From Hyphomicrobiales bacterium (GTDB lineage: Bacteria > Pseudomonadota > Alphaproteobacteria > Rhizobiales > Xanthobacteraceae): a stretch of 64,000 nucleotides of DNA. This document shows positions 472 through 14,964 of this stretch, piece after piece (the first letter of the stretch is position 1; the number at the start of each line of letters is the position of its first letter). The notes under the pieces were generated by a model. It did no database searches and was not told the origin of the DNA. It saw only the letters and a list, made by a program, of their open reading frames with translations. The stretch is from the NCBI GenBank assembly GCA_017305665.1, contig JAFKKH010000023.1, positions 53,492-117,491 on the forward strand. The letters run 5' to 3'. The position numbers and the translations under genes were made by a program.

Positions 472-1575
472 ATGCGGGGAAGTGATGAACGGTCCGGCTC
501 GCTTTTCAGTTATGTCGACCTGGAGGCCCGGGTTCGCGGCGACCACCCGCTACGGGTGATCCGGAACTTGGCGAATGCGGCGTTGGGCGACCTTTCTGGA
601 GAGTTGGGCGAACTCTACACAGACTTCGGCCGCCCCTCGATCGCACCGGAGAAGTTGCTCCGGGCGATGCTGCTGCAGGCGTTTTATGGGGTTCGCTCGG
701 AACGGCATCTGATGGAACGGATGGAGTTCGATCTTCTATTTCGCTGGTTCGTCGGGCTCGGCGTGGACGATGCGGTTTGGGACCATTCGACGTTCTCGAA
801 GAACCGCGACCGACTGCTTGAGGGCGAGGTTGCGGCCAAGTTCCTGAATGCGCTTTTGGCGCAGCCGAGGGTCAAGCGTCTGCTATCGAGCGATCACTTC
901 TCGGTGGATGGTACGCTGATTGAAGCCTGGGCTTCGATCAAGAGCTTCCGGAGGAAGGATGGTAGCGACAATGACCAGGACGGTCCGGGACGCAATGCCG
1001 AGCGCAGCTTCCACAAGGAGAAGCGATCCAACGAGACCCATGCCAGCACGACCGATCCCGAGGCTCGGCTCTACAAGAAGGGTGACGGCCAGCCGGCCAA
1101 GCTGAGCTATATGGGCCATGCGCTGATGGAGAACCGCAATGGTCTGGCGGTTTTGGGTGGGGTCAGCCAAGCCACGGGCACCGCCGAACGGGAGGTTGCG
1201 CTTGCCATGATCGACAGGCGCGGCGGCGCGCAGCGGATCACCCTGGGGGCGGACAAGGCCTACGACGTCACGCAGTTCGTCCACGACCTGAGAGATAGAT
1301 CCGTTACTCCGCATATCGCGATTGATGGACGTCTGAGTAAGACCGGCAAGCGGCGCAAGACAGCGATCGACGCGCGGACCACGCGTCACAGTGGTTACGA
1401 CGTCAGCCAGCGTTGCCGCAAACGCATCGAAGAAATCTTCGGCTGGATCAAGAGTTCCGCTGGCTTGGCCAAGGTCAAGCTGCGAGGTCGCGACCGGGTG
1501 GATGCTGTCTTCGTCCTGGCGCTTGCGGCCTATAATTTGATCCGGCTTCCCAAGCTTCTGGCGGCACCGGCATGA
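472..1575 (+). CDS. IS5-family-like DDE transposase
   Basis: This 367-residue protein catalyses cut-and-paste movement of the surrounding IS. The N-terminus (roughly residues 1-110: SYVDLEARVRGDHPLR, APEKLLRAMLLQAFYGVRSER) matches the DUF772-type domain of IS5-group transposases. Likely DDE residues are the Asp in FSVDGTLIEAW (about residue 145), the Asp in LGADKAYD (about 262) and the Glu in RKRIEEIFGWIKS (about 320). A strong GGAGG lies 6 bases before the ATG. Length fits the family and no frameshift is visible. Its stop overlaps the start of the passenger gene (ATGA). Confidence 0.92.
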   Translation: MRGSDERSGSLFSYVDLEARVRGDHPLRVIRNLANAALGDLSGELGELYTDFGRPSIAPEKLLRAMLLQAFYGVRSERHLMERMEFDLLFRWFVGLGVDDAVWDHSTFSKNRDRLLEGEVAAKFLNALLAQPRVKRLLSSDHFSVDGTLIEAWASIKSFRRKDGSDNDQDGPGRNAERSFHKEKRSNETHASTTDPEARLYKKGDGQPAKLSYMGHALMENRNGLAVLGGVSQATGTAEREVALAMIDRRGGAQRITLGADKAYDVTQFVHDLRDRSVTPHIAIDGRLSKTGKRRKTAIDARTTRHSGYDVSQRCRKRIEEIFGWIKSSAGLAKVKLRGRDRVDAVFVLALAAYNLIRLPKLLAAPA

Positions 1576-3603: not shown

Positions 3604-3807
3604 CTTTCTGGTTTCACGAATTTTCGCTCCGATTGAGCAACTTTAGCTGTGCGCGAGATTTCCTAATTTGTGCTTAAAAAGGCGTTGTCGCCCTGCCCGC
3701 TTAAATCGGCCCGCGCATGAACATCTTTACGATTTTGCGGCGCTCTTCATAAATGCCGCTTGACGAGGCACTTCGGGTGCCAGCCTTTCCATCTCGTGCA
3801 ATCGTAA

Positions 3808-3823
3808 TTGCGACAAATCGCAA
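3808..3823. promoter_or_regulatory. Small palindrome upstream of parA
   Basis: TTGCGA-CAAA-TCGCAA is a 6+6 inverted repeat 13 bases before the parA ATG at 3837. Its position suits an autorepression operator or partition site; this is inference. The rest of 3604-3807 shows no gene. Confidence 0.35.
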
Positions 3824-3836
3824 AGACGGAAGCACG

Positions 3837-4193
3837 ATGATTATTGGCGTTCTTAATCAGAAAGGCGGCGTGGGCAAAACCACCATCGCCATCAACCTGG
3901 CAGCGGTCGACGCCCGAAGCGGGCAGCGCGTGCTGTTCATCGATGCGGACCCGCAGGGTAGCGCGCTCGCCTGGTCAACGGCACGCGAGGCCGATCCCCT
4001 GTTTACCGTCGTCGGCATGGCCAAGCCCACGCTGCACAGGGAGCTGCCGCACATGAGCGGCGACTACGACGTGGTCATCATCGACGGCGCACCGCGGGTC
4101 AGTGAACTGGCACGATCGGCCATCATGGCCAGCGACCTGGTGATCATTCCGGTACAGCCGTCGCCGTATGACGTGTGGGCAACCACCGCCTGA
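3837..4193 (+). pseudogene. parA: ParA-family partition ATPase, truncated
   Basis: The N-terminus [16 protein letters not shown] is the deviant Walker A of ParA/MinD ATPases; [10 protein letters not shown] and [10 protein letters not shown] are the A' and Walker B motifs. The frame ends after [13 protein letters not shown] at 118 residues, whereas ParA proteins of this type are usually about 210. The missing part includes the C-terminal helices needed for dimer/DNA interaction. The ATG at 3837 was chosen because the family begins with [10 protein letters not shown]. The truncation coincides with the cut end of a minus-strand gene, so a deletion or recombination junction near 4180-4190 is likely. 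No parB partner is visible. Confidence 0.85.
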
Positions 4194-5082: not shown

Positions 5083-5237
5083 GACCACCGATGACAGCCT
5101 CTACACACGAGACCACCGGAGCTAACAGCTGACCACCGGATCACCGGCTGACAGATGAAATGGAATAATGAAACTGGAAGACCGAGACCACCGGAAGCAT
5201 GCTGACGTCGGCCTACACGATGCTTACGACCACCGGA
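5083..5237. repeat. Iteron-like direct repeats (GACCACCGGA x5)
   Basis: GACCACCGGA occurs exactly at 5111, 5131, 5186 and 5228, with a one-mismatch copy (GACCACCGAT) at 5083, all in the same orientation. Spacings are 28, 20, 55 and 42 bases. The last copy lies inside the 3' end of the rep frame. Clustered direct repeats beside a Rep gene are typical of iteron origins; here it is a candidate origin or Rep-binding region. Otherwise 4994-5212 contains no gene. Confidence 0.6.
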
Positions 5238-7417
5238 TCGCGAACACGGTCGACCGTCGACAGGCATGCTTCCGCTGGCCTGTCGGCATGATTGTGCTGC
5301 TGACAGCCTGGTGGACCTGCTGTTGAACTCGGATAATCGATATCCGGGGCACCGGAATCTACTGTTCTGATCAGCTGACACCCGGAATCGGTGTTGATGA
5401 CACCAGAATTGCTGGCAAGGAAGGAAGCAAGAGCAGGTGAAGTGGTGATCACCTTCACCGTGGTAGGTCTTGCTTTTTCTCTATACACACCTTCGCGGAA
5501 TTCCAGATCCAGTTCCGCGCAGAGGTCGTCCCAGTGTTTGTACGCCGCGGATTTGCCGACGGTACCGAGGCTCTTGATGAACTCGGTCTTATCGATCGCG
5601 CCATACTTCTTGAGCGCGACGACCATCTCCTTGCAGATGTTCCATTTGAAGACAGCGCTGCGGTGGTCGGCTGACCGCGCGAACGCCTGCTGCTGCCGTT
5701 CCTTCAGGCTCATGCAGTCGTCGATGACGTCGCGATCGCGTCCTCGGACCTTCCGCTTCCATGGCTTCGCCAGCCGTTCGATGCAGTACCGCGCCGCGAA
5801 CTCGCAGCGCTTGGCCAGCAGGCGGTCGAGTGCTTCGCTGGGGCCGAGCTCGGCCTCGACGTCAGCGCGGATGCTGTCGTCGAACCAGGCGGCCAGGGTG
5901 CCGACGCCGGCCTTGGCGGCCGCCATGAAGTCGTCCTCGCGCACCGCCAGCTGCGTGCGCGCCCGCGGCTCGATCAGATGGCCGATGGTTTTCCAGGCCA
6001 GGTTCGATGGGGTCTGTGCCGGCAGGTCACCGGCGGCATCGGCGCGAATGGTCGCAGCGGCCTTGGCCAGCGAGTGCTCATCGACCTTCCGTGGCCAGCC
6101 TGGGATCGACTCGAAGTCGGAAAGCTCGTGCCAGACGTCGTCGTTAGCGACGACCGTCGTCCAGAAAGGCGACAGCGCATTTTTCGGCTTCAGGATGTTG
6201 TGGAATGACGGATCGGCGCCGAGCGGCAGCAGCAGCTGCGTCAGCGCCCGCTGGACGGCGTGAAGCTTCTTGATTGGCTTTGTTTTGCACCTCTTGTCGC
6301 CGCCGGAGGTGACTACGCCCGTCGACGGGTCGACGCGCTCCCAGTACGGGTCGGTCCAGACCGGGTTTTTCAGGATCCAGATCAGGTGCGGCCGGCTGAG
6401 GAAGCCGGACGGCGTGATGCGGCCGACGATCAAGTTCGGCATGCGGTGCGGACCTAGGATCGCGAGCAGCTGGATGCGGAACTCCTCGATACGAAGCACG
6501 CTGTCGAGATCGACGACGATGCAGCCGGCAACCTTGCGGTTCAGTTCAACATAAGGCGCGTCGAGCGCGAAGAGCTTGCAGGTCGCGTCATGCAGCGCGG
6601 CCTTGTCGTAGCCAGCGCGCAGCCCCGACGCGACCGTCGGACAAAGAGCCGCCATTCGAGCGAGGCTCGGCGACCCCAGACGCGAGCGCAGAACGCCGGC
6701 GCCGAAAAATTCGAAGAGCCGGCCGCAGACTTCGCCGGCGACGACGGCGCCGCCGGCGTGATAGAAGCCCCACCGCAGGCGGTCTCGAATCTCTTCTTTG
6801 CGCTCGCGAGTGACGCCGGCCCACTTTTCTCGCTCCTTGAGCGCCTTGGCCGCCTCGGCTGGATCTACCTTGCCGGCGGCTATGTCTTCTGTCTTGTAGC
6901 CGGCGCGCAAGGCGCGGCGCCGGTTCTTGGCGGCGCGATCGGCACGCTTCTTCTCGTGCTCGCGGTCGGCCTTTTCCTGAGCGGCGGTTTGAAAGCCGAC
7001 GAGGGCTTGGTGTTCGCTTCCTTCGATGTAGTCGAAGTGCCGGAATGCATCTTTGCTGTAAACGAGCTTGGCCTCGTCCACGACCGCTTCCAGTTCGGCC
7101 GGCTCGAAGAACTTCCGGTCATCAGGATGGACGGTCGCCTCCATGGTGATCCGGCGCAAAATCTGAACCGACTGCGCGTTCTCGCTCTCGTGCTCCAACG
7201 GCGGAGCGGCGGGGATGTCGGCCGGCTGCGTCTCAGTGAACAGCCGGTAATTCATGCGCTGGATCACGTCGCCGTTCGGATCGCGATCTGCAAGCTGCAG
7301 GTCATGCAGCTGCAGCCTCGAAAGCACGCAACATTCGTGCTCATCGAGCAGCTTTCGGCGTGACGTGTTTAACTGTTTGAAGCGCATCACTCGATCCGGG
7401 TGGCGAGGTGAGCGCAT
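5213..7417 (-). CDS. Plasmid-type replication initiator (replicase/primase-like Rep)
   Basis: This 734-residue frame contains, around residues 300-365, VVDLD...MPNLIVGRITPSGFLSRPHLIWILKNPVW, resembling the Replicase family (primase-like Rep proteins of ColE2-type and related plasmids, PF03090), which recognises the origin and primes replication. Upstream (residues about 130-200) is a K/R/E-rich helical segment. The last about 60 residues are low-complexity and overlap the GACCACCGGA repeats. The start is uncertain: 7417 or the Met at 7387 (MRFKQLN) are both possible. Family assignment is by motif memory, so moderate certainty. Truncated parA nearby and an RHH gene upstream support a plasmid-derived module. 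Confidence 0.65.
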   Translation of the reverse strand: MRSPRHPDRVMRFKQLNTSRRKLLDEHECCVLSRLQLHDLQLADRDPNGDVIQRMNYRLFTETQPADIPAAPPLEHESENAQSVQILRRITMEATVHPDDRKFFEPAELEAVVDEAKLVYSKDAFRHFDYIEGSEHQALVGFQTAAQEKADREHEKKRADRAAKNRRRALRAGYKTEDIAAGKVDPAEAAKALKEREKWAGVTRERKEEIRDRLRWGFYHAGGAVVAGEVCGRLFEFFGAGVLRSRLGSPSLARMAALCPTVASGLRAGYDKAALHDATCKLFALDAPYVELNRKVAGCIVVDLDSVLRIEEFRIQLLAILGPHRMPNLIVGRITPSGFLSRPHLIWILKNPVWTDPYWERVDPSTGVVTSGGDKRCKTKPIKKLHAVQRALTQLLLPLGADPSFHNILKPKNALSPFWTTVVANDDVWHELSDFESIPGWPRKVDEHSLAKAAATIRADAAGDLPAQTPSNLAWKTIGHLIEPRARTQLAVREDDFMAAAKAGVGTLAAWFDDSIRADVEAELGPSEALDRLLAKRCEFAARYCIERLAKPWKRKVRGRDRDVIDDCMSLKERQQQAFARSADHRSAVFKWNICKEMVVALKKYGAIDKTEFIKSLGTVGKSAAYKHWDDLCAELDLEFREGVYREKARPTTVKVITTSPALASFLASNSGVINTDSGCQLIRTVDSGAPDIDYPSSTAGPPGCQQHNHADRPAEACLSTVDRVRDPVVVSIV

Positions 7418-7587: not shown

Positions 7588-7786
7588 AATAGGTGCGGGT
7601 TCGAACCTATTCCTGACATTTCGACTCTTTGATGATCTGAATCTCGAAATTTCAGCGTCACGCGAACGCCGGCATCGACGCCACGTCAAAAACTAAGTCA
7701 TTGAAAAAAAGAGCCGCTTTCTGAATCCAACATTTCGAGAGTCGAAATATCAGTCATCGAAAATAGGTTCGGGTTCGAGCCTATTT
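7588..7786. repeat. Imperfect long inverted repeat, each arm with its own hairpin
   Basis: The left arm (7588-7628) and right arm (7738-7786) are inverted copies: ATTTCGACTCT pairs exactly with AGAGTCGAAAT, and AATAGGT...ACCTATT hairpins occur in both. The right hairpin (AAATAGGTTCG/CGAGCCTATTT, loop GGTT) overlaps the stop codon of the RHH gene and is followed by TTTC on the minus strand, so it can terminate that transcript. The 110-bp core has no ORF. Confidence 0.6.
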
Positions 7787-8251
7787 CTTTTTCCTCGGCC
7801 ACTCTGCGCCGCCACCCTCGTCAGCGAAATCGCTTGGATCGGGCTCGTAGCCCGGCGGCAGCGGCGGCGGCTTCCAGCCTGGCGGACGCACCGGCGGTGG
7901 CGGCATTCCTCGGCGCGGCGCCGGCGCCGGTGCGCCACCGATGACTTTTCCCCACAGTTGAGCGAATGAATCCGGCGTGCCCAGAGGCGGTGCCGACGGC
8001 GCCTCGCGCTGGATCCGCCGACCACCGTGGTCAAGCAAAGGCTCGGCTGCCTGCTGGTTCACGAGCGCGATCATGCTCCGCTCGACCAGCAACGACCGCG
8101 TGATGCCGTTGTCGCCCGCCAGGCGGGTCAACTCGTCCATCAGGTCCGGATGAACCCGAATGACGAGCCTTTCGGTCCTCAGCGTGGATGGATCCTGCCG
8201 CGGACGGCCGCCGACGTTCTCGCGGGGTTTCCTTGTCGCCTTCTTAACCAT
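7781..8251 (-). CDS. Ribbon-helix-helix DNA-binding protein with proline-rich tail
   Basis: The 156-residue protein has a basic N-terminus (MVKKATRKPRENVGGRPRQD) followed by TERLVIRVHPDLMDELTRLAGDNGITRSLLVERSMIALV, the strand-helix-helix pattern of MetJ/Arc-type plasmid repressors or copy-control proteins (residues about 25-70). The C-terminal third is rich in proline and glycine (PAPAPRRGMPPPPVRPPGWKPPPLPPGYEPDP), presumably disordered. The Met at 8251 was preferred over an upstream start at 8314 because the conserved-looking basic region begins there. It is upstream of rep on the same strand and divergent from the AAA+ cassette, so it may regulate both. Confidence 0.75.
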   Translation of the reverse strand: MVKKATRKPRENVGGRPRQDPSTLRTERLVIRVHPDLMDELTRLAGDNGITRSLLVERSMIALVNQQAAEPLLDHGGRRIQREAPSAPPLGTPDSFAQLWGKVIGGAPAPAPRRGMPPPPVRPPGWKPPPLPPGYEPDPSDFADEGGGAEWPRKKK

Positions 8252-8334
8252 GCACAGCCTTAGTGTTTGCTTTTTAGGTCTTTCTGTTGCACCAATAACC
8301 GTCAATGATGGCATCTTGGCACACCGGCAGTACC

Positions 8335-8460
8335 ATGGATTTCAAGGATTCGAAAGCAGCAGCACTGGAAGCCTACTGGCTCCAGACCGTGCTCGATGAC
8401 CGTGCTGAATCTGCTCCGCCACCGGCGCCCGTCGATCGGGAGGCCAGCGATGAACAGTGA
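8335..8460 (+). CDS. Small acidic 41-residue protein overlapping the AAA+ gene start
   Basis: ATG at 8335 opens a 41-codon frame (MDFKDSKAAALEAYWLQTVL, then a proline/acid-rich tail) ending in TGA at 8458-8460. The AAA+ start at 8450 lies inside it, giving an 11-base overlap in another frame, a common sign of translational coupling. The first 20 residues form a plausible amphipathic helix. There is no strong ribosome site, so it remains tentative. It would be the first gene of the cassette. Confidence 0.45.
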   Translation: MDFKDSKAAALEAYWLQTVLDDRAESAPPPAPVDREASDEQ

Positions 8461-9838
8461 TTTCGAAGCTGCCAATCTCCCGTTGCCGATCGCACTGTTG
8501 CTGCTGGATCGATGGGATGACGCCTATGCGTATTTGCTAAATGAGACCAAGCTGACGCTGGCTGGCCGCTTCCTCGTGATGCCGGAAAGCATCAAATACG
8601 ACCCCACCATTGTGGATCGCGAGCCACTGCGACAGGCGATGCTGTTGTTCGCCGAATCCTTGGCCGGGCACGGTGAGCGCGATAGAGGCTTGCTGGCGCT
8701 GGCGTGGCGCATGCTCACGGTCGATCCGCAAAAGCCGGATACGTTCGCTGCAGTGATGCCGCCGCTGGCGTTCCTCGCGAAGCATTTCACCGACGTCACC
8801 GACACGAAGCTGCGCGAACAGATCGATGCGCGCCTGCGCGTCTGGTGGCGTGCCGCGGATGGCAAATATAAAGACTCCGATGTTTCGATGTTTCGCATCG
8901 CGGACGTCGACACACGCCCGTCAGCGCTCTGCATCGACGATCCAGATGTCGCCACTGACAGCCCGCAGCAGCCGGAGGTGAAGGGTCCAAGTGTTGTCGT
9001 GCTGTCGAAGGCCGGCGCCGTGACGAAGGGTCTTGCGAACGACTGGAAGTCCATGATCGGCCAGGCGATCCCATTGGTCGTCTGCGCCGATGCCGCAGCC
9101 GTGCGTCGCGATCTCTACGTCGAGTATCCGCACGCCACCCAGGCTATTGACCTGCTGACACGCGACCTGCGCGATGACCAGCCCGTGCGTCTGCGGCCAA
9201 CGTTGCTTGTCGGCCCGCCCGGCGGCGGAAAGTCGCGTCTCGTGCGACGCCTCGGCGAAATCCTCGGCCTCTATATGTACCGTTACGATGCCACCGCAGT
9301 TGCAGACAACATGTTCGGCGGACTGTCCAAAGGCTGGGGGAGTGCGCATCCGTCGGTGCCTGCGCGCGCAGTTCAAACGTCGATGCAGGCCAATCCGATC
9401 GTGATGGTTGATGAGATCGAGAAGGCCGCCGACAGCACGTACAACGGCAACCTTTGGCATTCCTTGGTGCCGTTTTTAGAAAAAGAGACTTCGTCTCGAT
9501 ACCGAGAAGTCGGCATCGATGCTGAGCTCGATCTCTCGCACGTCAATCATGTCGCCACCGCCAACGCCGTCGACCGTTTGCCGTCGCCGCTGCGGGATCG
9601 CTATCGCATGATCCGCGTGCCGTCTCCGACTCTGGCGCACCTGCCGGCGCTGGCCGTCCAGGTGATGCGGGATCTCGCGCGCGATGACGATGCGAGGTCT
9701 TACGACGAGCCGCTGGCCGGCGATGAACTCGACATCATCGGCCGGGCCTGGGCGCGGGAGCGGTTCTCCATGCGCAAGCTGCAGCGCCTGGTCGCCGCGA
9801 CGCTCGATGCGCGCGACGCCTGCGCACCGCGGCACTGA
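8450..9838 (+). CDS. Lon-like AAA+ ATPase without protease domain
   Basis: This 462-residue protein has an unrecognised N-terminal half (about residues 1-220) and a C-terminal AAA+ module: Walker A GPPGGGKS (255-262), Walker B IVMVDEIEKA (about 317-326), a sensor-like HVATANAVDRLPSPLRDRYR and a lid helix region (FSMRKLQRLVAATLDAR). The module resembles the ATPase of Lon, but no Ser-Lys protease domain follows. The start at 8450 has GGGAGG 7 bases upstream and is preferred over an in-frame GTG at 8396. It probably remodels a protein or nucleoprotein complex; the target could be one of the downstream unknown proteins. It is followed after 14 bases by the next cassette gene. Confidence 0.8.
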   Translation: MNSDFEAANLPLPIALLLLDRWDDAYAYLLNETKLTLAGRFLVMPESIKYDPTIVDREPLRQAMLLFAESLAGHGERDRGLLALAWRMLTVDPQKPDTFAAVMPPLAFLAKHFTDVTDTKLREQIDARLRVWWRAADGKYKDSDVSMFRIADVDTRPSALCIDDPDVATDSPQQPEVKGPSVVVLSKAGAVTKGLANDWKSMIGQAIPLVVCADAAAVRRDLYVEYPHATQAIDLLTRDLRDDQPVRLRPTLLVGPPGGGKSRLVRRLGEILGLYMYRYDATAVADNMFGGLSKGWGSAHPSVPARAVQTSMQANPIVMVDEIEKAADSTYNGNLWHSLVPFLEKETSSRYREVGIDAELDLSHVNHVATANAVDRLPSPLRDRYRMIRVPSPTLAHLPALAVQVMRDLARDDDARSYDEPLAGDELDIIGRAWARERFSMRKLQRLVAATLDARDACAPRH

Positions 9839-9852
9839 ATGGAGTTGTCTAT

Positions 9853-10143
9853 ATGCACAGCGTTAAACAACTCAAATCCGATTTCGACAGCTACCTCCGC
9901 GGCGAAGGTCCGTCGGTAGTCGAGCTCGCGCCGGCGCCGCTGCTCGATGAGTGGAATGTCGTCATTTCAGACTACTGTGGCGACTATCAGTTGTATCTCT
10001 CCGGTGAGGTCTCTGGACATCCATCCATCGATAACGGCCATTGTTCTACGTCGGCTGTCGTCTGGCTCGATCCGAAAGAGCGCTGGGCCCGCACGACGTC
10101 GCGCGTGTACCAGCTCGGCAAGCGCGCGGAGACGGCAGAATGA
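9853..10143 (+). CDS. Cassette protein 1, unknown (DUF6634-like pattern)
   Basis: 96 residues. The middle and end, GEVSGHPSIDNGHCSTSAVVWLDPKERWARTTSRVYQLG, has the pattern GHP...TS..V.LD...RWART.SR.Y.LG that I associate, without certainty, with the DUF6634 family of small rhizobial proteins. GGAG lies about 9 bases before the ATG. Its stop overlaps the next start (ATGA at 10140). It has no signal peptide and is probably cytoplasmic. Confidence 0.7.
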   Translation: MHSVKQLKSDFDSYLRGEGPSVVELAPAPLLDEWNVVISDYCGDYQLYLSGEVSGHPSIDNGHCSTSAVVWLDPKERWARTTSRVYQLGKRAETAE

Positions 10144-10406
10144 GCCGCGAGTACATCTGGCTGAAGTGGCGCACGCTGAAGGAGGTCGCCTCCGACGATC
10201 CGCGCGTGCTCGCAGCCCTGCGGAAGTACCACGCCGACGAGGTCATGATGGGAGCTGCGACGCAGGAGGACACGCCGGCGCAGAAGGACGCCCTGTGCGA
10301 GATGATCGACGCGATCGCTGAGAACGGCGGTGCGATCATCAACGCCTGGACCATGCGGCCGATGACGGCGGAGCAGGCGAAGAAGTACGTGAAGGAGTCG
10401 ACATGA
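10140..10406 (+). CDS. Cassette protein 2, unknown
   Basis: 88 residues (MSREYIWLKWRTLKEVASDDPRVLAALRKYHADEV...). It is mostly helical with balanced charge; no motif recognised. The start is fixed by the ATGA overlap with the previous stop and the same arrangement with the next gene at 10403. A longer in-frame version from 10041 would overlap the previous gene by 100 bases and is unlikely. Confidence 0.7.
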   Translation: MSREYIWLKWRTLKEVASDDPRVLAALRKYHADEVMMGAATQEDTPAQKDALCEMIDAIAENGGAIINAWTMRPMTAEQAKKYVKEST

Positions 10407-10876
10407 GAGCTTTCACGCTGCTGGAGGGTGAGACAAGCGCGCGGATGATCCGCGTGCGCGGCAACGGTACCATCATCGTACACGAGGGCGGAAGACGCAG
10501 GCTGCACGCGCGGGTCACCGACCTCGACCGTAACGCTTCGACCTGGGCACTCCTAGCCCGGGTGGTGCCGGCGATCGCGCATGCGGAGTCGGTCCGCTCG
10601 AAGATCGACCGCCTGGTCGAGCGTGCGATGACCGGATGGACGCCGGCTTCCGACGAGATCGACGCGGACATCCCACAACGGACGCTGAAGGAGGCGGTCT
10701 TCGCCACCGATCTGCTCGCATTCCCCGACGATCCCGACCTGATGCACTACAGCCGCGCGTACAGGCTGCTCGGCCGCGACGAGAGCGGATTCGGAGCCTC
10801 GGTCGGTGAGATCCTCTGGATCGCCGCTAACCGCGAGTGGGCGATTTGCGACGACGGTTTCTGGTGGCTGCCATGA
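10403..10876 (+). CDS. Cassette protein 3, unknown; paralogue of cassette protein 6
   Basis: 157 residues. An N-terminal beta-rich part (MIRVRGNGTIIVHEGGRRRL) is followed from about residue 68 by IDRLVERAMTGWTPASDEID and ends in GEILWIAANREWAICDDGFWWLP. The same two blocks recur in the gene at 12086 (IERLLERLQTGWTPSASEID; DFALTTDAFLWL), so both carry a shared domain of about 80-90 residues. It overlaps both neighbours by ATGA. No family recognised. Confidence 0.7.
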   Translation: MRAFTLLEGETSARMIRVRGNGTIIVHEGGRRRLHARVTDLDRNASTWALLARVVPAIAHAESVRSKIDRLVERAMTGWTPASDEIDADIPQRTLKEAVFATDLLAFPDDPDLMHYSRAYRLLGRDESGFGASVGEILWIAANREWAICDDGFWWLP

Positions 10877-11532
10877 GACGCCGAGATATCCTGCGCGGCG
10901 TCTCGATGACCGCGCTGACGGCAGCCTGGTCGCGCGTGGCGCGTGCCGCCGGCATTGCTCGAGTGCCGGCGGAACCACCTGCTCCGATTCCGCCGCGATA
11001 TCTAACAGCTGGTGACCACGTCGATCGCATGTGGCGTGACGTCTACCGGCGTAAAATTGACGGTGACCATTTCTTGAGGGCGGTTTTCAACAACTACATC
11101 GAGGAATTGCGCAAGCTCAATCGAGGCGAGGTCGATGAAGCCACCGCGGCGGCGCGAATGCTGGCGCTGCATTCCGAGGCCCTGTGTCATCCGCCGTCTC
11201 CGCGCGAGATTCCGCCGCTGCCGGCGGACGAGGTCGGCGTCGACGAGGTCATGGCGCTGCTGCGCCGCGCAATTGCCGGCGAGGTTCGCATCGTCGTCGC
11301 GCAGCCGTGGTCCGACGTTTGCCACACCCACGGGGATCTCTCGATCTACGGATGGCGGCTGACGGGATTCAGGCGAAACTACGGGATCAAATACATCGAG
11401 AGCGCGACGTCACCCGACAGTCGTCGTGGAACTCGTGAAAGCTGGAGTGCGCGCGAGGGTAACCCCGTGTATCTGCTCGCTGATGACGAGCAGGATGCGC
11501 TTGACGATTTGATAGAGAAATTGGTGCCATGA
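10873..11532 (+). CDS. Cassette protein 4, unknown, Tat-like N-terminus
   Basis: 219 residues. MRRRDILRGVSMTALTAAWSRVARA resembles a short twin-arginine signal followed by a weakly hydrophobic stretch and AxA, so periplasmic export is possible though the hydrophobic core is poor. The rest is charged with a helical N-terminal part (VDRMWRDVYRRKIDGDHFL) and an alpha/beta C-terminal part. The ATG at 10873 overlaps the previous stop; the alternative at 10837 would overlap more and lose the RR start. No family recognised. Confidence 0.65.
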   Translation: MRRRDILRGVSMTALTAAWSRVARAAGIARVPAEPPAPIPPRYLTAGDHVDRMWRDVYRRKIDGDHFLRAVFNNYIEELRKLNRGEVDEATAAARMLALHSEALCHPPSPREIPPLPADEVGVDEVMALLRRAIAGEVRIVVAQPWSDVCHTHGDLSIYGWRLTGFRRNYGIKYIESATSPDSRRGTRESWSAREGNPVYLLADDEQDALDDLIEKLVP

Positions 11533-12089
11533 GCAGAGGCATTGAAATTGTCGTGCTGCCGGATCCGCAGCCCGCGGAGGGCACGGTGCTTGCGAAGATC
11601 CAGATGTCGCCACACGGCACCGTCGATGCATGGCGCCTCGATCGCGACGGTGCGCACATTGGATTCCGGATGAATCCGGTACCCGATCTCGGGAAGCTGA
11701 CGATGTTCGAAGTGGTCGAGTTGCTGGCGAAGTCGTGCAGGACGGTGGACGCCGACGGAGGCGTCGTCATCATGCACGCCGTCCTGTCGACGGCGCACGA
11801 CTGCCCGCAGCCAGGCCAGCGTCTGCTGATCGCGATGCCGACACCTGACACCAATCCGCACGCTGTCGGACGCATCGTCGCGGCGGAAGAGCGACCAGGC
11901 CGGTGGGCGATGCCGACGTTTACGCTGACCGTCGCCGTCGACAACGCCGACGATACAGCGGCGCGTGCCGAGTTTCCGCATGCGGCTGTGCTCGATTGTT
12001 ATCCGACGGTCATCGAAGCCGAACGCTGGCACGCGATCGACGAATGGCATGTCAAGCTGCACGGATATGGCAGGAATCACTGGTCATGA
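11529..12089 (+). CDS. Cassette protein 5, unknown
   Basis: 186 residues, beta-rich by inspection (GIEIVVLPDPQ, RLLIAMPTPD, PTFTLTVAVDNADDT), acidic, with several His and Trp near the end (IDEWHVKLHGYGRNHWS). No signal peptide or known motif. ATGA overlaps join it to genes on both sides. Confidence 0.65.
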   Translation: MSRGIEIVVLPDPQPAEGTVLAKIQMSPHGTVDAWRLDRDGAHIGFRMNPVPDLGKLTMFEVVELLAKSCRTVDADGGVVIMHAVLSTAHDCPQPGQRLLIAMPTPDTNPHAVGRIVAAEERPGRWAMPTFTLTVAVDNADDTAARAEFPHAAVLDCYPTVIEAERWHAIDEWHVKLHGYGRNHWS

Positions 12090-12586
12090 GTGAAGCCATC
12101 GAACGCCTTCTTGAGCGCTTGCAGACCGGCTGGACGCCTTCCGCAAGCGAGATCGACCGCGACATCGTGCAGGTCGATGCGCTCACGTGGGAATGGAGCC
12201 ACGATGGTCGATCGATCTTGTCCAGATCGGCTGATCAACGTCCGCAGATCCACGGCGGCATCCTTTACGTCAGCGAGCGGCTCGACTTCGCGCTGACGAC
12301 CGATGCGTTCCTCTGGCTCGAACGTCAACGTCAGAGCACCGTGATCGAGTACAACATCCCCGACGATCTGCTTGGCTATGACACTTCGCAACCTGGCTAT
12401 ATCCGACAAATGGCGCGCGACGCGCTGACAGGTCGCAACGAGGCCGCTGTCGAAGCAGAATTGGAGCGCGTGCGGGCGCGACTAATGCTTCCGCGGCATC
12501 ATCCCACGCGCCGACAGCGTCTGCGACGATGGCTGTCGCATCGGTACTGGCGCGCCAGATTCTGGATCAAAGATCTCATAAAATGA
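12086..12586 (+). CDS. Cassette protein 6, unknown; paralogue of cassette protein 3
   Basis: 166 residues. The first about 80 repeat the domain of the gene at 10403 (IERLLERLQTGWTPSASEID and GGILYVSERLDFALTTDAFLWL). The C-terminal part differs: a helical charged segment followed by a strongly basic end (RRQRLRRWLSHRYWRARFWIKDLIK), which could bind nucleic acid or a membrane surface. The start at 12086 is set by the ATGA overlap; 12583 overlaps in the same way. Confidence 0.7.
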   Translation: MSEAIERLLERLQTGWTPSASEIDRDIVQVDALTWEWSHDGRSILSRSADQRPQIHGGILYVSERLDFALTTDAFLWLERQRQSTVIEYNIPDDLLGYDTSQPGYIRQMARDALTGRNEAAVEAELERVRARLMLPRHHPTRRQRLRRWLSHRYWRARFWIKDLIK

Positions 12587-13050
12587 AAACACTTGCCCCT
12601 TGCGTCGTATGCGACCGAGAGCTCGATGATGAATCCGCCGGCAACAATCAGCCGGTCGGCGGCCTGGCATTCCAGTGCGGCGGGCACTGGCCATCATCCG
12701 TTTTCGATCGTGGAGATGGCACTTGGCTTGAAATCAATGTCTGCGAGCCGTGCCTTCGGACAGCGACTGCGCAGCGTCGTGTGCTGCATGGTGACCGCGA
12801 GCATCGGCGTGCTCGCGCCACGTATAAAATATGGGACTGGCCAGCCACTCGGACTCCAGATTCGCTCGTGGAGCAGGCGCTGGCAATCCTCGACATGTCA
12901 CCAGACGTCCTGCCGGAGTCCGGCGATGAGATCGTGGGCGACGTCTGGATCCTGCAGCGCGACGCCGACGAGAGCGACGAGGACTATGTGGAGCGCGCAG
13001 CAATGCTCGGATGCGACGCCGAGGGTCGGCTGCGACTACAGCGATCATGA
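12583..13050 (+). CDS. Cassette protein 7, zinc-ribbon-like unknown
   Basis: 155 residues. CVVC near the N-terminus (residues 7-10) and CEPC (about 53-56) form a probable four-Cys zinc site of ribbon type. The C-terminal half is acidic (SGDEIVGDVWILQRDADESDEDYVERA). It closes the ATGA-linked run; the next gene is 182 bases away beyond a hairpin. An in-frame start at 12529 lies inside the previous gene and is less likely. Confidence 0.68.
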   Translation: MKTLAPCVVCDRELDDESAGNNQPVGGLAFQCGGHWPSSVFDRGDGTWLEINVCEPCLRTATAQRRVLHGDREHRRARATYKIWDWPATRTPDSLVEQALAILDMSPDVLPESGDEIVGDVWILQRDADESDEDYVERAAMLGCDAEGRLRLQRS

Positions 13051-13182
13051 TTTGCTGATTTATTGCCGATCCCGATTTCGAAATTCAGTCGCACTGCCAA
13101 TGGCCTGATCGCTGGCAGCGGATAATTCTGCCGATGTTCGTTGCCGATACCACCGACTTTACGCGATCAACTTCGCCGAAAA

Positions 13183-13206
13183 GGAAGCTATCTCGCGTTA
13201 GCTTCC
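13183..13206. terminator. Hairpin sharing the GGAAGCTA stem with 7547-7574
   Basis: GGAAGCTA and TAGCTTCC pair over 8 bp with an 8-base loop. It lies in the 182-bp gap after the ATGA-linked run and 27 bases before the next gene. It could end the long transcript or be a regulator site. Confidence 0.4.
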
Positions 13207-13232
13207 CATAACCAGCACAAGGAGACCAGTAC

Positions 13233-13457
13233 ATGCGTAGCCTTCTGATACTCGCCGCTCTCATCGTCACCACCGCCGTCGCCCATGCCGAGCAATGCCG
13301 CTTCGGCAGCAATCGCCCGGCAATCGACACCATGGAGCGCCGCATCACGCCCGGCGGCACCACGATCTCATGCGACATGAAGACCGTGACGATGCAGGCG
13401 CCGTCGGGCCGGCGGCATGACGTCAAGGTCTGGACGTTCCAGAAGACCAATAAGTGA
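13233..13457 (+). CDS. Small secreted protein, unknown
   Basis: 74 residues with a clear Sec signal peptide (MRSLLILAALIVTTAVAHAE, cleavage after AHA). The mature part of about 55 residues has two cysteines (EQCRF, ISCDM) that could form a disulfide, and a basic C-terminus. An AAGGAG-like site is upstream. No family recognised. Confidence 0.65.
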   Translation: MRSLLILAALIVTTAVAHAEQCRFGSNRPAIDTMERRITPGGTTISCDMKTVTMQAPSGRRHDVKVWTFQKTNK

Positions 13458-13459
13458 GC

Positions 13460-13526
13460 GGATCAAAGAATTGAGACGTCACGACGTCAGGTTGAACGAT
13501 TTGAGGCCTGATTGAAGGATTTGAGA
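13460..13526. repeat. Three degenerate direct repeats in an intergenic gap
   Basis: GGATCAAAGAATTGAGAC (13460), GGTTGAACGATTTGAGGC (13490) and GATTGAAGGATTTGAGAC (13510) align over 17-18 bases. GACGTC occurs twice between the first two copies. They precede the gene at 13552 and may be a regulator array. Confidence 0.4.
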
Positions 13527-13551
13527 CCTTGTTCGCAAAGAGAGTGACGCT

Positions 13552-13980
13552 ATGAACCGTCGCGAGATCGTTGTTGGAGTCGCCGTGGCGGCCGCTGTTG
13601 CAGCTATGCCAGCAGTGGCGATTACGAAGGTTTCGGATGAGGCACCATTTCCTCTGCCGCCGTACATTGGCAGGCAGACATTTTTGATGGTCGCATCGAC
13701 TGGACCTTTTACACGCGCCGGCTTGAATGGGTCAGAGAGCGCGCTTGATCGCTTGATGCCTGAAGTCCACCGCAAGCTGGAGGTCACCTTCTCGAAGGCC
13801 GAGATCCAGGCGATCCTGGCCGAGAAGGCGCGAGCGCTGGTTCTGAAGCGAAGGGATGTCAATCGCGTCGAACTCAAGCAGGTGCAGCACGTCGAGGGCG
13901 AGGCCGTTGTGACGCTGGTGATCGGCAACAAGGTCGTCACGGATCACACATGGCCGTTCAAAAAGAAGAGTGCAAAATGA
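13552..13980 (+). CDS. Exported protein, unknown, Tat-like signal
   Basis: 142 residues starting MNRREIVVGVAVAAAVAAMPAVA, an RR-containing hydrophobic signal with AVA cleavage, consistent with Tat or Sec export. The mature part has a helical charged middle (VHRKLEVTFSKAEIQAILAEKARAL) and a short beta end. No family recognised. Its stop overlaps the next small start (ATGA). Confidence 0.62.
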   Translation: MNRREIVVGVAVAAAVAAMPAVAITKVSDEAPFPLPPYIGRQTFLMVASTGPFTRAGLNGSESALDRLMPEVHRKLEVTFSKAEIQAILAEKARALVLKRRDVNRVELKQVQHVEGEAVVTLVIGNKVVTDHTWPFKKKSAK

Positions 13981-14165: not shown

Positions 14166-14361
14166 TCTCGGCTGCGGAAGTCGGGCCAGCAGCCATCCTC
14201 TTCATGTCGGGCATAACGCGCGCCCTAATAAAAGAGCCCCCTACTTCGGTTGAGTGCCTCCTACCGGGCCCTCTAAGCGCCGGTGAGAGGCAGAATCGCG
14301 GCGGGCCTTGGCCTCCGCCGCGAAGATACAAAGCGAAAGCGATCGCGAGACAAAGAATGCG

Positions 14362-14964
14362 ATGGCGGCGAAAGGTTATTGGGATGCCTTCCAAGAAGTA
14401 CGGAAATCCGTTAGCCAAATTCTGGACGGTGAAGACGCCGCCGGCGTTGTCGAGCAAGAGCACCTGAGTTGGTATCGCGCGCTCTTCCAGCCGTCGCTCG
14501 CCGCAGGCATCGTGAAGCCGGAGAACCTGGCGGGGTACCGACAGCATTTCGTCCGCATTAGCGGTTCGGTGCACGCACCGGCGAGCTGGGAGTCGGTGCC
14601 AGACGGGATGGATGCGTTCTTTGAATGCCTCCGCGACGAAAAAGACCCGAGAGTGCGTGCGGTCCTCGGCCATTTCATCTTCACTTTCATCCACCCATTA
14701 CCAGACGGAAATGGACGGTCCGGTAGGTTCATCATGAATGCGATGTTGGCTTCTGCAGGTATCCCCTGGACAATCATTCCTGTAGACCGGCGCGACGAGT
14801 ATATGGAGGTGCTGGACGACGCGAGCGTCCGGGGCGACATCAAGCCGTTTGCCGCCTTCGTGGCGGATTGTGCCAGGCATGAGCCCCCTCCGCCACGGCG
14901 CAAGAAGCCTGGCGAAGTTCAGCCTGAGATCAATCTGGACGCGCCGGTCGGACTGAAGCCGTAG
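14362..14964 (+). pseudogene. Fic-domain protein, probably 5'-truncated
   Basis: The 200-residue frame contains the Fic catalytic loop HPLPDGNGRSGR (His about residue 101), which in intact enzymes transfers AMP or another nucleotide to a target hydroxyl. The visible part (KGYWDAFQEVRKSVSQILDGED...) matches what is normally the C-terminal half of longer Fic proteins, so the N-terminal half appears to be missing. No good ribosome site precedes the ATG at 14362; a TTG at 14308 is in frame. A shorter functional Fic is possible, since all core residues are kept. No recognisable (S/T)xxxE(G/N) inhibitory helix or separate antitoxin is seen. Confidence 0.7.

Follow-up and report, generated by a model that had tools for sequence, protein, structure and literature searches.

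Lon proteases are defined by their peptidase and Lon substrate-binding domains, and IetAS is a two-part anti-phage system. Compact operons form a further point of reference. Gene overlaps of 4 or 1 nucleotides (nt) are by far the commonest prokaryotic spacing (PMC10666635), and termination-reinitiation is known for overlaps of the ATGA type (PMC6728339, PMC10666635). Our literature search found no paper on the protein family DUF6634 or on its association with AAA+ ATPases or phosphoesterases. The window, a stretch of 64,000 nt from a Hyphomicrobiales bacterium (contig JAFKKH010000023.1, positions 53,492 to 117,491), contains an operon in which a leader peptide gene and a Lon-type AAA+ ATPase gene precede a DUF6634 gene and six further small genes, the last seven being joined by six ATGA overlaps. 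The main interest of the locus lies less in these overlaps than in the way DUF6634 recurs alongside AAA+ ATPases and phosphoesterases, on plasmids as well as chromosomes of Alphaproteobacteria. The genes of the operon, in window coordinates, are listed below, with notes on a second copy located on contig C16 of the same genome.

8335..8460, plus strand: leader peptide gene of 41 amino acids (aa), with an 11-nt overlap with the likely ATPase start at 8450.
8450..9838, plus strand: Lon-type AAA+ ATPase without a protease domain (PF00004, E-value (E) 2.9e-11; PDB Lon AAA domains, 7.8e-17), Walker A and B present.
9853..10143, plus strand: gene 1, a DUF6634 member (PF20339, E 3.9e-14, 53.2 bits against a cut-off of 27).
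10140..10406, plus strand: gene 2, an orphan of 88 aa, 95% identical between the copies.
10403..10876, plus strand: gene 3, a paralogue of gene 6 and possible distant DUF6634 relative, absent from the second copy.
10873..11532, plus strand: gene 4, with a C-terminal DUF7693 domain (PF24745, E 2e-13, 50.8 bits against a cut-off of 27).
11529..12089, plus strand: gene 5, an orphan, about 75 N-terminal residues of which are missing in the second copy.
12086..12586, plus strand: gene 6, paralogous to gene 3; in the second copy it forms a fusion with gene 7.
12583..13050, plus strand: gene 7, with two CxxC pairs and a C-terminal tail seen on another protein.

The association of DUF6634 with its neighbours was measured in 41 loci, 36 found through DUF6634 and five through the AAA+ ATPase; the window itself is not among them. 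The 36 loci consist of nine plasmid regions chosen from 35 plasmid records, six genome contigs, one contig of a viral collection, and 20 stretches, which together account for 22 of the 28 matches to DUF6634 in genomes. Two of these 28 (G171:C13 and G027) lie outside the count, as do the AAA-found loci without DUF6634 (9 of 15) and locus L036, in which both are present with a weaker DUF6634 match. The controls were 37 stretches of 12 kilobases (kb), the 36 DUF6634-found loci being 7-13 kb long. An AAA+ homologue is present in 26 of the 36 DUF6634-found loci (31 of 41 overall) versus one of the 37 controls, and a metallophosphoesterase in 18 (20 of 41 overall) versus none. One or both of these partners occur in 31 of the 36 loci (36 of 41 overall), compared with the same single control. 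DUF6634 itself is carried by 20 of 200 related genomes, own genome counted.

The partner ATPases are of two kinds. Among ten examined, five carry Peptidase_M41 above the cut-off and one more below it, and all six of these contain HExxH. A Cereibacter plasmid encodes a fusion of metallophosphoesterase and DUF6634 in a 605-aa protein (L099 2543-4360). The order on the Bradyrhizobium japonicum plasmid p1S06B is leader, AAA, DUF6634-like gene, and a gene resembling genes 3 and 6, the last being ATGA-joined, which matches the order in the window. Replicase (Rep), ribbon-helix-helix (RHH), AAA, and DUF6634 genes are found together again in the C16 copy and in genome G053. The contig of the window (C12) harbors a phosphoesterase gene pair on the minus strand about 32 kb before the operon (L073 8668-10201). 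On the Paracoccus plasmid pMARC5 (L040 569-16630), multiubiquitin, E2, and ThiF-type genes as well as the DISARM gene drmA surround an AAA homologue.

The six ATGA overlaps claimed in an earlier note on this DNA are all present on the plus strand, at 10140, 10403, 10873, 11529, 12086, and 12583, and the overlapping stop and start codons of a translationally coupled operon thus occur six times. The range flagged there, 10140-12586, takes in the joints; the genes themselves extend over 9853-13050. The starts at 10140, 10873, 12086, and 12583 differ from those of the longest open reading frames (ORFs); the start at 10873 is backed by the second copy of the operon, and that at 12583 by a distant homologue with a start at about the equal position. 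When both strands are scanned for ATGA-joined ORFs with a minimum length of 60 aa, the window yields a single six-joint chain. In about 1.83 megabases (Mb) of comparison DNA, the longest chain, of four joints, belongs to the operon's second copy; all others have three at most. The comparison DNA comprises eight groups, drawn from other parts of the same genome, samples of one chromosome of the same genus and of one of the same family, loci of relatives, and named plasmids and contigs. Order-3 Markov DNA (50 windows, 3.2 Mb) yields a maximum of three joints, reached five times. The ATGA run is therefore real and rare within the DNA sampled, and the unusual regularity that had been claimed for it stands within that sample. 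The seven genes do follow an AAA+ ATPase gene, and the remark that no product has a recognized function is borne out: genes 1 and 4 fall in named families, neither with an assigned function, and no product has a known one.

The second copy shows how far the run is fixed. A base-by-base alignment recovers the divergent regulator, the AAA gene, and genes 1, 2, 4, 5, 6, and 7 in the order of the window. Gene 3 is missing, the gap falling exactly between two ATGA joints; gene 5 retains its ATGA start in spite of its missing N-terminal residues; and the end of gene 6 and the start of gene 7 are absent, so that a single in-frame fused gene stands there (L024 11087-11725, L024 being the C16 locus), with an additional in-frame gap in the gene 7 part. 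All four joints that exist in this copy are ATGA. The ratio of nonsynonymous to synonymous substitution rates (dN/dS) over codons aligned between the copies is 0.22 for the AAA gene, 0.28 for gene 1, 0.33 for gene 2, 0.31 for gene 4, 0.15 for gene 5, 0.30 for gene 6, and 0.31 for gene 7; gene 3 has no C16 counterpart and is outside the comparison. Every operon gene compared is under purifying selection (dN/dS 0.15-0.33). Selection maintains the proteins, frames, and joints, yet not the gene set, and the two copies in one genome constitute a natural pair in which a long ATGA-joined operon varies in gene content with its joints unbroken.

The earlier description of seven genes locked together in fixed stoichiometry does not fit a copy that lacks one gene, has another shortened, and has two fused; this difference in gene set argues against a fixed seven-subunit stoichiometry. 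The check proposed in that description, recurrence of the seven-gene order elsewhere, turns out negative: outside the window, the order recurs only as this incomplete copy, and the intact order was found nowhere else. Genes 2 and 5 match only their own genome: no relative of gene 2, which has two copies there, was found outside it among 150 genomes, 289 genomes of the class, and the plasmid collection, and none of gene 5 among the 150 genomes or the plasmid collection. The earlier interpretation is thus partly supported, in that the seven genes are real and plausibly translationally coupled, while a fixed seven-part set is not supported. Downstream of both copies lie small proteins with twin-arginine stretches (window 13552-13980, L024 12555-13178), which we take to be Tat-like.

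Re-initiation at the ATGA joints is plausible. The strength of the Shine-Dalgarno-like sites is uneven, at -8.7 kcal/mol for gene 3, -6.6 for gene 2, -6.3 for gene 4, -5.5 for gene 6, -3.1 for gene 7, and -2.9 for gene 5, relative to a median of -3.1 and a strongest 5% of -8.5 kcal/mol in random operon windows. Equal output of the genes is therefore not implied, and genes 5 and 7 would rely most on coupling and gene 3 least. The literature points both ways on this matter: short overlaps are tied to precise subunit stoichiometry and overrepresented among genes for heteromeric complexes (PMC10666635), whereas in three operons downstream genes may exceed upstream ones several-fold (PMC6728339).

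On sequence similarity (34% over 89 aa, E 2e-6, with the common motif TGWTPxxxEID), genes 3 and 6 are paralogues. The related protein on p1S06B is 45% identical to gene 3; its gene comes after the AAA and DUF6634-like genes, with an ATGA joint to the DUF6634-like one. Searched with a hidden Markov model (HMM) of 42 DUF6634 sequences, this B. japonicum relative reaches 17.5 bits (E 1.6e-4), compared with a best of 9.1 among shuffled sequences (273 reported of 300), and a profile-profile comparison gives E 4.4e-5 at a probability of 69%, with a collinear alignment. A common origin of genes 1, 3, and 6 is likely, although not proven. A weak match to gene 3 in genome G104 (E 5.7e-4) was set aside as probably due to chance, the other ORFs there reading as a different gene.

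DUF7693 is carried by 2 of 248 genomes, own genome counted. The CxxC pairs of gene 7, which are presumably zinc-ribbon-like, are both conserved in an Arthrobacter plasmid protein, and the C-terminal tail of gene 7 recurs at the end of a protein in genome G110 that is unlike it in all other respects. In G110, the protein with the gene 7 tail, a metallophosphoesterase, and a DUF7693 protein lie within 4 kb (L103 8236-12070). A genome of the same genus, G001, harbors apparent remnants in order on the minus strand: an AAA C-terminus, C-terminal pieces of DUF6634, and the gene 7 tail (L102 3598-4468).

Upstream, the operon begins further out than first noted, at the leader peptide gene. In the C16 copy 38 of 41 residues of the leader are the same, and a clear homologue precedes the AAA gene of p1S06B, joined to it by ATGA. 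A motif search of the collected loci found no further short frame resembling the leader; a looser candidate of 67 aa is present in G053. The ATPase start was placed at 8450, where the Shine-Dalgarno-like strength is -10.3 versus -1.8 at the ORF opening at 8396. A scan of genome contigs with the AAA ATPase brought up no relative, whereas the scan with DUF6634 gave six loci. The features that flank the operon are as follows.

8252..8334, no strand assigned: intergenic region between the divergent genes, candidate promoter/operator.
7781..8314, minus strand: divergent small protein with a weak ribbon-helix-helix match (RHH_1, E 0.022, 15.2 bits, under the cut-off of 20.5).
5213..7417, minus strand: replicase-like protein (PF03090, E 1.2e-5, 25.8 bits, just below the cut-off of 26).
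3753-4193: truncated ParA-like ATPase (146 aa); the three forward frames beyond it show no continuation.

The divergent RHH-like protein, which likely starts near 8251, is 86% identical to its C16 counterpart (dN/dS 0.16) and is a candidate regulator. Across the intergenic region, two 60-base blocks are 95-97% identical between the copies versus 75-92% in four flanking blocks; blocks of 97-100% identity occur within genes too, so that this lends little weight to a promoter or operator. No sigma-70 consensus was found in 7600-13700. The replicase-like protein matches six plasmid records, four of them at proteins annotated as replication initiation proteins. A transposase with DUF772 and DDE domains is encoded at window 472-1575, and a Fic/DOC family protein shortly downstream of the operon at 14308-14964 (PF02661, 3.2e-13). 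AAA homologues on Bradyrhizobium plasmids occur near virB genes. A conjugative element was considered and rejected, the whole genome being without a VirB4-type ATPase (PF03135). A prophage was likewise rejected as the main explanation: PHROGs matches to genes 1-7 are weak (the best, E 0.0017, is to gene 1 and of unknown function), gene 1 is unmatched in phages at E 0.01, and single-protein scans of IMG/VR, one with the AAA protein and one with gene 1, brought up no relatives. An alignment search of the viral collection with DUF6634 retrieved one contig.

The explanation we favor, tentatively and with somewhat less than even confidence, is an accessory operon beside a plasmid-type replication gene, consisting of an AAA+ remodeling motor, DUF6634-type partners, and a fast-changing, lineage-specific, ATGA-joined tail. 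The leader, the protease-less ATPase, and gene 1 appear to be the better conserved core, and the seven-gene tail seems to be a variable appendage of a little-known set of motor and partner genes, not one fixed machine. The AAA+ protein would form a ring that uses ATP to unfold or remodel proteins, as its Walker motifs and Lon similarity suggest. Proteins of the DUF6634 type (that of gene 1 and perhaps those of genes 3 and 6) may be adaptors or regulators that pick or present clients, a role suggested by the recurrent pairing of DUF6634 with AAA+ motors of two distinct kinds. The divergent RHH-like protein would repress the operon, ribosomes ending one gene would restart at the overlapping ATG, and genes 2, 4, 5, and 7 would be accessory and replaceable. 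The purifying selection on all compared genes counts in favor of this explanation, as does the presence of open frames and of ATGA at all four joints in the C16 copy despite its different content. So do the frequency of AAA+ and phosphoesterase genes near DUF6634 relative to the controls, the two kinds of partner ATPases, the Cereibacter fusion, the gene order on p1S06B, and the joint recurrence of Rep, RHH, AAA, and DUF6634 genes in C16 and G053. A broader proposal, which we regard as rather doubtful, is that DUF6634 proteins make up a hitherto undescribed adaptor class serving AAA+ unfoldases, both protease-bearing and protease-less and often with a phosphoesterase; the adaptors would have multiplied here (genes 1, 3, and 6), and the ATGA joints would serve as seams for the turnover of genes, domains, and fusions with coupling kept.

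Several results weigh against the favored explanation. The pairing is one-sided, being weaker in the reverse direction (DUF6634 in only 6 of 15 AAA-found loci), which slightly lowers our confidence in both the favored explanation and the adaptor-class proposal and raises that in neutral cargo, and 10 of the 41 DUF6634 loci have no AAA partner. Some queries of the neighborhood test were drawn from tested loci (L034, L092, L094, L097, L099), and the loci are not independent, as nine of them (L092, L093, L098, L153-L158) have one Rhodobacterales arrangement. The adaptor role is drawn from gene neighborhood, and the P-loop pattern is unmatched in the B. japonicum ATPase. Against the HMM of 42 DUF6634 sequences, the scores of genes 3 and 6 (-1.0 and 2.5 bits) amount to no match, and neither gene matches Pfam; their link to the family runs through the single B. 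japonicum intermediate, itself Pfam-less, and one profile-profile score, a first comparison of 13 versus 4 sequences having been negative (E 0.054, probability 1%). The AlphaFold models are weak, with a predicted local distance difference test (pLDDT) score of 69 for gene 1 and 53 for gene 6, and the one Foldseek search gave no match at E 0.001.

Three other explanations draw on parts of the same evidence. The operon may be an accessory of plasmid maintenance or replication, its AAA+ and small proteins acting on the Rep/ParA system next to it; the replicase-like gene adjoins the AAA gene in the window, C16, and G053, a Rep match is present in L041 (a Roseomonas plasmid), and L161 has both a Rep and an RHH match. 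This seems fairly unlikely, given that Rep matches are present in just 3 of the 41 DUF6634 loci, that 5 of the 20 genome DUF6634 stretches lie on contigs larger than 3.9 Mb, and that the window has only a truncated ParA. Under neutral cargo, the orphans would have accreted behind an active promoter, the joints would stem from common compact overlaps, and there would be no joint function. Genes 2 and 5 are unmatched outside their own genome in the searches made, the two copies diverge strongly in gene content, and overlaps of this size are the usual ones (PMC10666635); dN/dS of 0.15-0.33 in all compared genes, tail differences that leave frames open and joints in place, and a chain length unmatched in the DNA sample make this account unlikely nonetheless.

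By analogy with systems that combine AAA proteins and proteases, the operon could also be an anti-phage or anti-plasmid defense module on an AAA+ motor. M41 on partner ATPases is consistent with this, as are PADLOC IetA profiles matching 9 of 90 ORFs in DUF6634 neighborhoods, as AAA homologues, and, among 25 of 80 families listed, the profiles of HerA, SspA, SspB, DndA, BrxF, and MTase (methyltransferase) matching one ORF each. The defense-type neighbors are single matches, however; the PADLOC matches of the operon itself are weak and confined to the AAA protein (PtuA1 1.1e-4, IetA 0.039), with none in genes 1-7, and profile scans detect no nuclease family in the operon. A defense role appears quite unlikely.

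Set beside the known systems, the ATPase of the window shares an AAA ATPase core with IetAS; its match to IetA is weak (E 0.039), genes 1-7 match no PADLOC model, and the pair of IetA and IetS is not found. With the FtsH-type partners that combine AAA and Peptidase_M41 it has a DUF6634 neighbor in common, while lacking both an M41 match and HExxH. Its core aligns with Lon (NCBIfam lon, 1.4e-18; PDB Lon chains) and contains Walker A and B. Unlike Lon, it has no Pfam match to the peptidase or substrate-binding domain, and it scores 66.8 bits against a lon cut-off of 608 in a match that spans positions 357-516 of 795 in the profile. The run has the identical 4-nt overlap of ATGA-coupled operons, whereas the gene content between its joints varies between copies and coupling here is putative. 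DUF6634 itself is a further point of comparison: gene 1 is a member, and members elsewhere also have AAA+ ATPase and metallophosphoesterase genes nearby, whereas the member in the window stands first in a long tail of ATGA-joined genes and possibly has divergent paralogues.

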